A stretch of 64,000 nt of DNA from Halolamina litorea (GTDB lineage: Archaea; Halobacteriota; Halobacteria; Halobacteriales; Haloferacaceae): the NCBI RefSeq assembly GCF_026616205.1, contig NZ_JANHGR010000001.1:1984001-2048000 (forward strand). The letters are read 5' to 3'. Shown here in pieces: positions 13,156 to 26,206 of this stretch (its first letter is position 1; every line of letters begins with the position of its first letter). Under the pieces are notes generated by a model that did no database searches, was not told the DNA's origin, and was given only the letters and a program-made list of their open reading frames with translations. The position numbers and the translations under genes are program-made.

Positions 13156-14112
13156 GTGTCTCGCTATCAGGACGCCGGGCTGTTCGCGCTGCTCGCCGTC
13201 GCGTGGGGCGCTGGCTTCTCCGCGATCGAGGTCGGCCTCCGCTCGATCGAGCCGATCCTGTTCGCCGGCTACCGCTTCGACATCGGCGCCGTCGTCACCC
13301 TCGGGGCGCTGGCGGCGATCGGCCGGCTGGACCGGCCCACCGAACGTGCCGACTGGCAGGCCATCGTCGTCGCCGCCGCGCTGCTGGTGTTCGGCAACGT
13401 CTTCTTCCTCTTCGTCGGACAGCTCTACACCTCCGGCTCGGTCGCATCCGTCGTCTACAGTCTCACCCCCGTACTCACGGTCGGGTTCGCCGCCCTCCTC
13501 CTCTCCGGCGGGGGACTCGACGCTCGCGACACCGTCGGTATCGGGTTGGGCCTGATCGGCGTCATCCTCATCGCCGGTCCCGACCCCTCCGTGACGGCCG
13601 CGGCACCCACTGGTGCGCCGGAGTTCCTCTCACCGGCCTTCGCCGTGCTCGGCCCCGACGGCGTGGGCGCGTCGCTGGTGTTCTGTGCCGTCATCTCCGT
13701 CGCCGCGGGCAGCGTCCTCCTGCGCCGGATCGACGCCCCGATGGCCAGCCTGCCCACGACGGGGTGGGCGATGGCGCTCGGTGCGGTGATGCTCCACGCC
13801 GCCAGCCTCGCACTCGGGGAGACGCCGACGCTCCCCTCGGGGACGTGGACGTGGGTCTCGGTGGCCTACGTCGGCGTCGTGGCGAGTTCGGTCGGCTACG
13901 GGGCCTACTTCACGCTGATGCGACGCCGGGGACCGTTCACCTCGAACCTCGTGAGCTACGCCGTGCCGCCGGTCGCGTCGATTACGGGCTGGGCGCTGCT
14001 CGACGAGGCGCTGCCGCCGGTCGCGGTGGTCGGGTTCGGGCTCATCCTCGTCGGCTTCCTCGTGCTCAACCGCGAGGTCGTGGCCGAAGAACTGCGTCGG
14101 GTCGCGGCGTAA
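13156..14112 (+). CDS. EamA/DMT-superfamily metabolite transporter
   Basis: This 318-residue transporter has ten predicted transmembrane helices in two EamA repeats (about 5-140 and 165-305), which is the drug/metabolite exporter layout. LLAVAWGAGFSAIEVGLR at the N-terminus and SYAVPPVASITGWALLDE near the C-terminus are typical. The GTG at 13156 is preferred: it precedes the first helix directly and has CTCAAG at the leaderless distance. An in-frame ATG at 13117 would add 13 residues. The substrate is unknown. The stop abuts the stop of the converging peroxiredoxin gene. Confidence 0.9.
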   Translation: MSRYQDAGLFALLAVAWGAGFSAIEVGLRSIEPILFAGYRFDIGAVVTLGALAAIGRLDRPTERADWQAIVVAAALLVFGNVFFLFVGQLYTSGSVASVVYSLTPVLTVGFAALLLSGGGLDARDTVGIGLGLIGVILIAGPDPSVTAAAPTGAPEFLSPAFAVLGPDGVGASLVFCAVISVAAGSVLLRRIDAPMASLPTTGWAMALGAVMLHAASLALGETPTLPSGTWTWVSVAYVGVVASSVGYGAYFTLMRRRGPFTSNLVSYAVPPVASITGWALLDEALPPVAVVGFGLILVGFLVLNREVVAEELRRVAA

Positions 14113-19291: not shown

Positions 19292-19407
19292 AGCCGCCGC
19301 TACGGACTGTTGACGGATAGTTCCACAGGACGAGGCTGTCGCTCTCAGTGTAGCGTTCGGAAGGATATGCGTGGGTGCTGTCCGGAGGACGAGCACCTGC
19401 ATCGTGT

Positions 19408-19431: not shown

Positions 19432-19516
19432 TGCGTGGGACCGGATTTGAACCGGCGGACCTCTACAGGACAGCGCCCTCAACGCTGCGCCGTTGGCCTA
19501 GCTTGGCTACCCACGC
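19432..19516 (-). tRNA. tRNA-Leu (anticodon GAG)
   Basis: A complete class II cloverleaf of 85 nt lies on the minus strand. The acceptor GCGTGGG pairs with CCCACGC, with discriminator A and no encoded CCA. The anticodon stem CAGCG/CGCTG carries the seven-base loop TTGAGGG, so the anticodon is GAG. A long variable arm (TCCTGTAGAGGT) is typical of tRNA-Leu, and the T loop is TTCAAAT. A TATA-like CTTTTAC near 19556-19566 is the probable promoter. Confidence 0.96.
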
Positions 19517-25817: not shown

Positions 25818-25901
25818 GCGAGGGTAGCCAAGCTCGGAAACGGCGGCGGACTCAAGATCCGCTCCTGTAGAGGTCCAAGGGTTCAAATCCCTTCCCTCGC
25901 A
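25818..25901 (+). tRNA. tRNA-Leu (anticodon CAA)
   Basis: A complete class II cloverleaf of 84 nt. The acceptor GCGAGGG pairs with CCCTCGC, with discriminator A. The anticodon stem GCGGA/TCCGC holds loop CTCAAGA, so the anticodon is CAA. The variable arm is long and the T arm is AAGGG-TTCAAAT-CCCTT. The TATA-like GGCTTTAAGG near 25762 is the promoter. A CAACCA-loop hairpin follows directly (25906-25921). Confidence 0.96.
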
Positions 25902-25970
25902 TCGCCGGGGCAACCACCCCGAGATGCGGGAAGACGCTCTCGGAGCGCTCTTCCCTCGCAACAACTTCGA
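25902..25970 (+). repeat. 3' flank repeat of tRNA-Leu, copy 1
   Basis: A 69-nt sequence starting right after the tRNA discriminator base is repeated at 26138-26206 with only 3 mismatches. It contains the CGGGG-CAACCA-CCCCG hairpin (25906-25921) and the motif GATGCGGGAAGACGCTCTCG. The repeat shows that the tRNA gene and its 3' flank were duplicated together. Confidence 0.85.
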
Positions 25971-25980
25971 ACATCAGTCA

Positions 25981-26137
25981 GCGACGGCTATCGTCACGGA
26001 CGGTGGCGGGCTCAAGATCCGCTCCTGTAGAGGCCATGCGAGCGAAGCGAGCGTGGGCACGGGAGGCGGCCGCGACGTGAACAGCGTGAACGAGCGGACC
26101 GCCTCCCGGTGGTCCAAGGGTTCAAATCGGTTCCCCG
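25981..26137 (+). pseudogene. Decayed, interrupted second copy of tRNA-Leu(CAA)
   Basis: GCGACGG at 25981 aligns with the tRNA-Leu(CAA) 5' end, with substitutions and a 3-nt deletion through the D arm. Then 23 nt (26011-26033) are identical to the anticodon loop and variable arm of the intact gene. About 78 nt of unrelated sequence follow. The copy resumes at TCCAAGGGTTCAAATC (near 26113-26128), with a T stem that can no longer pair and a broken acceptor end. It cannot fold into a functional tRNA, and the insert has no intron-like bulge-helix-bulge that I can see. Confidence 0.7.
26060..26108. repeat. Inverted-repeat insert inside the tRNA pseudogene
   Basis: The 78-nt interruption contains a perfect 10-bp inverted repeat, CGGGAGGCGG (26060-26069) and CCGCCTCCCG (26099-26108), around a 29-nt loop. 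Just before it is GCGAGCGAAGCGAGCG, a motif seen in other haloarchaeal spacers (compare 2927-2949). It could be a small mobile palindromic element; no target-site duplication is clear. Confidence 0.5.
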
Positions 26138-26206
26138 TCGCCGGGGCAACCACCCCGAGATGCGGGAAGACGCTCTCGGAGCGCTCTTCTCTCGCAAAAA
26201 CGTCGA
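26138..26206 (+). repeat. 3' flank repeat of tRNA-Leu, copy 2
   Basis: This is the second copy of the 69-nt flank (66 of 69 identical), including an intact CGGGG-CAACCA-CCCCG hairpin at 26142-26157. It follows the tRNA pseudogene just as copy 1 follows the intact gene. The flank is better conserved than the tRNA pseudogene itself, which is unexpected for simple decay. Confidence 0.85.

Follow-up and report, generated by a model that had tools for sequence, protein, structure and literature searches.

As summarized in Table 1, an intact tRNA-Leu(CAA) gene in the window (the whole 64,000-nucleotide stretch of Halolamina litorea DNA analyzed in this study) is followed by a terminal module of two hairpins, a tRNA-like second unit, and a second copy of the terminal module. 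By repeat search, a partial and interrupted tandem copy of the tRNA was found behind the intact gene, just as an earlier sequence-only reading had described it. The copied arm does include 23 identical nucleotides around the anticodon loop (starting at CTCAAG), the 5′ part of the unit is degenerate, and the second T-stem is broken (CGGTT versus CCCTT) in a T-arm repeat of 92% identity (25872-25896 and 26111-26135). An insert does lie in the variable-arm region, at a net length of 79 nucleotides instead of the proposed 78, the spacing of the repeats rising from 160 to 239. Folding predicts two strong hairpins in it (-48 kcal/mol). The 3′ flank is repeated as claimed (25902-25970 and 26138-26206, 66 of 69 nucleotides identical), and both flanks end in a further copy of the tRNA 3′ end, which the sequence-only reading had missed. 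About 20 nucleotides separate the first terminal module from the partial tRNA copy.

Table 1. Features of the tRNA-Leu(CAA) array in the window.
Feature	Position	Strand	Description and basis
Intact tRNA-Leu(CAA)	25818..25901	+	Discriminator A at 25901; ARAGORN; Rfam RF00005, 53.3 bits
Terminal module, hairpin 1	25899..25927	+	From GCA (final 3 nt of the tRNA) to TGC; sequence and fold; GCA..TGC layout also in relatives
Terminal module, hairpin 2	25928..25960	+	3′ end is the tRNA 3′-end copy CTTCCCTCGCA, 25950-25960; fold
tRNA-like second unit	25981..26137	+	Degenerate 5′ part, copy of anticodon and variable arm, hairpin insert, T-arm copy
Copy of anticodon arm and start of variable arm	26000..26033	+	94% to 25840-25873
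Two-hairpin insert in variable-arm region	26034..26110	+	Fold z -5.5
Degenerate T-arm copy	26111..26135	+	14/20 to tRNA tail
Terminal module, second copy	26138..26196	+	3′ end CTTCTCTCGCA, 26186-26196; repeat 66/69; fold

The second unit is not predicted to be a functional tRNA by ARAGORN and repeat comparison, and ARAGORN reported no second tRNA-Leu in L001 with introns of up to 200 nucleotides allowed. At the position of its would-be acceptor stem, GCGACGG (25981-25987) and CCGTCGC (26135-26141) form a perfect 7-bp complement, which differs by one swapped pair from the GCGAGGG/CCCTCGC of the tRNA. This complement overlaps the flank, is unused in the predicted fold, and may be due to chance. 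The two-unit array recurs in a congener (L002) with 87% identity over about 385 nucleotides; thus, the arrangement in the window is not a chance one. The second unit is a decaying member of the array, but the terminal module belonging to it remains well preserved. Units related to it were found at other tRNA-Leu(CAA) and tRNA-Phe loci. Elsewhere in the window, two hairpins lie behind the tRNA-Leu(GAG) gene (19432-19516, minus strand) and terminate in CCCACGCA (19368-19375, minus strand), which repeats the last 8 nucleotides of that gene 57-64 nucleotides downstream.

Is the terminal module common behind tRNA-Leu(CAA)? An exact copy of the last 8 nucleotides of this gene was found within 600 nucleotides downstream in 42 of the 53 relatives having a usable tRNA-Leu(CAA) (60 genomes searched, 58 examined after leaving out G035 and G047), and is absent in 11 of the 53. 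Both the reversed 8-mer and the upstream side gave 0 in these relatives. The flank, which the sequence-only reading supposed to be kept for a reason, is indeed found in most relatives. The copy changes along with the acceptor stem (CCCCCGCA in G042 and CCTTTGCA in G027). In all 30 loci read, which are a biased set made up of the best matches among the 60 genomes searched, tRNA-Leu(CAA) is followed by a module that finishes with the tRNA 3′ end. Among the matches listed in a pattern scan were Halobacterium salinarum, Halorubrum, Haloarcula, Halovivax, Natrinema, and others, together with unrelated bacterial matches. Second units appear and vanish within the genus Halolamina: G002 shares the two-unit array of the window, G001, G004, G005, and G006 carry the terminal module only, and G003 has a T-arm module and a terminal module. 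Tandem units were also found in L027 and in L023, the latter having four near-identical units of about 87 nucleotides each, while L235, which belongs to the same genus, has one.

At many loci, an extra unit, here called module B, lies between the tRNA and the terminal module. The 3′ strand of its hairpin is the tRNA sequence from the T-loop to the discriminator base, and the 5′ arm is the complement. In all, the copies come in three lengths: the acceptor strand only (terminal module), from the T-loop to the discriminator base (module B), and from the anticodon arm to the discriminator base (tRNA-like unit). Of the module tails tested, 35 of 64 match the tRNA at 20 of 20 positions. In L248, L249, L286, L291, L292, L294, and L295, one or two extra bases were seen in the T-loop copy (TTCAACATCCC, TTCACAATCCC); such bases spoil a T-loop and need not spoil a hairpin. 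The core of module B, GAATCAGGGAGC...GCGACCGTGGTTC, is common to different tRNAs. Of 197 relatives, 59 carry its pattern, and the backwards control matched none. A phylum-wide scan placed it in 12 of 53 genomes from within the order and in 0 of 241 from elsewhere. In a locus pool that is enriched for the feature, 92 of 96 core matches lie within 800 nucleotides downstream of a tRNA in the same orientation, with 26 tRNA labels represented; at each of the remaining four, a partial tRNA tail is visible by eye.

The tRNA-like unit is the rarer form in the same enriched pool: 20 copies of the own anticodon arm were found behind 327 tRNA genes, 17 of them at tRNA-Leu(CAA) and three at tRNA-Phe, the tRNA-Phe gene of the H. 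litorea genome included. The reversed probe gave 0. A functional second tRNA in relatives, which the sequence-only reading had named as a case that would speak against it, was not encountered, as none of these copies lies inside a complete tRNA. Besides the window, 11 tRNA-Leu(CAA) loci have an insert that separates the anticodon arm from an intact tail (including L002, L005, L015, L027, L055, L112, L142, and L144), the insert forming hairpins in L002, L005, L015, L027, L112, L142, and L144. Five other Leu loci have the anticodon arm without the tail. In the second units of L002, L015, and L027, a G replaces U33 of the anticodon loop (CGCAAGA or CGCGAGA), which is expected to spoil decoding.

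Less affected by this enrichment are the 42 of 53 above and a survey genome by genome, in which the tRNA genes were taken by the Rfam tRNA model. In the H. litorea genome, 9 of 43 tRNA genes have a copy of a fragment of their own tail within 250 nucleotides downstream. The tRNA-Leu(CAA) gene of the window is outside these nine, since its copies are short or damaged. For the other haloarchaeal genomes, the 30 best-scoring tRNA loci of each gave 29-31 tRNA genes with enough flank, and the own-tail copy was found for 14 of 30 in G112, 15 of 29 in G134, 9 of 30 in G057, and 2 of 31 in Halobacterium salinarum. None of 35 tRNA genes in two outgroup genomes from other families of the phylum has such a copy; in another count, 8 of the 35 had tail copies, each with a complete tRNA downstream. 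The upstream and reversed-probe controls gave 0 throughout. In the locus pool, which was not randomly drawn, the layout was found behind 30 tRNA labels. The array in the window is one case of an order-wide feature, that is, hairpin modules which copy the tRNA's own 3′ end, and its distribution is patchy, as shown by H. salinarum and by the 11 relatives lacking the Leu copy.

The arm of the hairpin follows the tRNA behind which it lies. In the enriched pool, an antisense arm matching at least 10 of 12 positions was found in 94 of 159 copies, compared with 0 for the reversed probe and 1 for shuffled spacers. In a permutation test on 110 of the 142 tRNA genes with copies, also from this pool, the arm fits its own T-stem at 4.10 of 5 positions, the maximum among permutations being 3.68 (0 of 2000 reached the observed value); the fit to the T-stems of other isoacceptors is 3.20 of 5. 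The arms also covary with their partners. Across 38 aligned modules, the covariation score is 0.237, versus 0.110 for shuffled modules (0 of 500) and 0.033-0.066 for slid partners, and nine pairs have changed on both sides. A T.G pair of the core present in 38 of 38 does not count, the search pattern having fixed it.

The bias of the main hairpin toward the tRNA strand (82 of 82) was set aside for the same kind of reason, as the core was fixed by the search pattern, and 63 arrays without the exact core were used instead. Their median MFE z is -4.0, and 53 of them beat all 10 shuffles. The plus strand is the more stable in 44 and the minus strand in 18 (p 1.6e-6 versus shuffles); with 18 of 63 opposite, this is a tendency. 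The first hairpins show the same tendency (41 versus 14 of 57) and have 15 G.A mismatches and one C.T mismatch, and the pooled mismatches comprise 22 G.T versus 11 A.C. Given the compensatory changes and the better folding on the tRNA strand, the hairpins seem to favor an RNA made from that strand, as these sequence and folding analyses point to. Visual inspection was the basis for weighing K-turn, H/ACA, and BHB readings. Strings resembling GCGAACGAAGTGAGC or CGAGCGAAGCGAG are frequent in the insert of the window (26034-26110) and in the first hairpins of many relatives, where they can form tandem G.A pairs with a GAA loop closing them. A similar string, GAGCGAAGCGAG, occurs inside the repeat behind E. 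coli proK.

The known sequences closest in layout are the tRNA-linked repeats (TLRs) of E. coli, which include the rtT repeats of tyrT and tyrV. There are 22 of them at ten loci, and their last 18-19 bp repeat the 3′ end of the tRNA or rRNA gene before them (PMC8144298). Some are co-transcribed with and processed from the tRNA or rRNA precursor. They have been known since 1978; according to PMC8144298, they had no known function before the rrA/rrB/rrF sRNAs described in that paper. Like the haloarchaeal modules, they sit next to the 3′ end of tRNA (or rRNA) genes, in many cases as tandem repeats (PMC8144298). The 3′ end of an E. coli repeat is identical to that of the upstream gene. The same-strand position behind a tRNA is seen in the window as well as for the 92 core matches. 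As for the tail identity, the window has an 11-nucleotide copy in the first module and the 14-of-20 match in the second unit, and the class as a whole the 35 exact tails among 64. Several loci per genome are also found here, judging from the nine tRNA genes in the H. litorea genome and the tandem units of L023 and L027. The haloarchaeal modules differ from TLRs in their archaeal hosts, in their core sequence, in having three copy lengths including the anticodon-arm form, and in the 30 tRNA labels (pooled and non-random) as opposed to ten loci. I read 12 genes of E. coli K-12, five of which have a tail copy in reach: for leuP and leuQ it is a neighboring complete tRNA, and for the other three (tyrT, tyrV, and proK) a repeat. 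Inner hairpins are present in the repeats of tyrV and tyrT, together with an arm that matches the complement of the copied tail at 10 of 12 positions, and shuffled spacers were as good in 2 and 3 of 200 cases, respectively. In the proK repeat, 6 bp pair and the arm matches at 7 of 12, which is not above chance (190 of 200 shuffles as good). At least two of the E. coli repeats, those of tyrT and tyrV, have the layout in common with the haloarchaeal modules.

Among haloarchaea, the t-elements of Haloferax are likewise tRNA-like sequences, on which the tRNA-processing enzymes RNase P and tRNase Z act, according to an excerpt of PMC4946936. As characterized in that excerpt, they are tRNA-like structures cut by both enzymes, whereas the modules here copy the 3′ strand of one tRNA only and, unlike t-elements, pair a T-arm copy with an antisense arm. 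In Rfam, tRNA was the sole family reaching the threshold. Searches of the open-licence literature yielded no account of such repeats in haloarchaea, a scope that makes this a weak negative.

How did the repeats come about? The sequence-only reading had raised the possibility of an integration scar, in which proviruses or plasmids that attach at the tRNA 3′ end leave part of the tRNA duplicated. Haloarchaeal tRNA genes serve as attachment sites, as stated in an excerpt of PMC3119063, and the 20-nucleotide repeat from the T-loop to the end resembles an attachment core. In the Haloquadratum proviruses treated in that excerpt, the 3′ part of the tRNA is repeated downstream as it is here; however, those partial copies are 6.7 to 52 kb away, with viral genes or an integrase in the insert (PMC3119063), whereas the spacers here are 49-247 nucleotides long with a median of 87 and are free of genes (non-random locus pool). 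The repeats of the window span 25902-26206, leaving no room for a mobile-element or integrase gene. The tandem units, the many tRNA labels, the compensatory changes in the hairpins, and the share of sampled tRNA genes involved (as much as half in a genome) likewise argue against a scar. Nor was the module found in phage and plasmid searches: there were 0 matches in 50,697 phage records, the plasmids gave only tRNA-Leu-like matches, on four plasmids, and the four matches of the Leu pattern in viral contigs include none behind a tRNA-Leu. With gene-free repeats, short spacers, hairpins, and many tRNAs against it, the scar was given up as the main reading and is very unlikely. A scan of viral contigs with GACCGTGGTTCRAATC gave 16 matches, of which six are in or near ordinary tRNAs, nine have no tRNA in reach, and one (L301) is a tRNA-Glu with a module. 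L301 is an IMG/VR contig with tail-protein genes, in which a haloarchaeal-looking tRNA-Glu(TTC), a module, and a degenerate second module occupy 13744-13920; they probably belong to the host DNA flanking a provirus.

Instead, a REP- or MITE-like DNA repeat, small and non-autonomous, might settle at tRNA 3′ ends, with the tRNA tail as a target or recombination site, a palindrome needed as DNA, and RNA folding incidental. The single core across many tRNAs, the tandem copy number that varies between L023 and L235, the palindromes made by arms and tails, and the patchy distribution all agree with such a repeat, but core matches nearly all fall downstream of tRNAs on a single strand, the tRNA strand gives the better fold, and each tRNA has an arm specific to it, something that one mobile sequence would not carry along. 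I consider it somewhat unlikely. That tandem duplications simply decay, with template switching making the palindromes and no function involved, is consistent with the degenerate second unit of the window, the fluid copy number, and the relatives without the Leu copy. Against such neutral decay, a terminal module with exact copies persists across many families, the longer modules keep their structure despite sequence change, and the folding is strand-biased; it, too, has little probability.

Beyond the observed anatomy, own-tRNA matching, covariation, and strand tendency, I favor the reading that this is a haloarchaeal tRNA-linked repeat array which is probably a structured trailer co-transcribed with its tRNA. 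Units may arise when the tRNA 3′ end is duplicated in tandem, and gene conversion with the neighboring tRNA may keep the copy matched, while hairpin pairing, through selection or templated correction, would keep the arm matched. The array would be transcribed by read-through from the tRNA promoter; tRNase Z would cut the trailer off after the discriminator base, and the trailer may persist as a hairpin RNA. Its role would most likely be in RNA, namely trailer stability, 3′-end processing, or a trailer-derived small RNA.

A bolder reading, which I hold to be quite unlikely, is that the arrays are RNA switches which offer a second 3′ strand (the acceptor strand, and in longer modules the T-arm) to the same tRNA 5′ half. 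With the array attached, the 5′ acceptor strand of the tRNA is predicted by folding to prefer the distal copy in 116 of 131 cases. This competition was rejected as evidence for a switch: in 70 arrays with the spacer shuffled and the copy kept, the distal preference was 0.85 for real and 0.89 for shuffled spacers, and with Turner 1999 parameters 0.82 and 0.88, respectively. Since shuffled spacers give the same preference, it is uninformative on design. If the switch were true, the precursor would fold either as the tRNA or with the distal copy, the maturation level of each tRNA would be set by how many copies there are and how strong the hairpins are, and the same solution would have arisen in the E. 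coli tRNA-linked repeats and in haloarchaea.

The layout of the E. coli TLRs is recurrent in haloarchaea, where, in addition, the arm follows the T-arm of each individual tRNA. The haloarchaea provide many natural variants with which to test regulatory trailers versus processing signals versus selfish DNA. These results also serve as a warning that partial tRNA copies in haloarchaea are not always integration scars.
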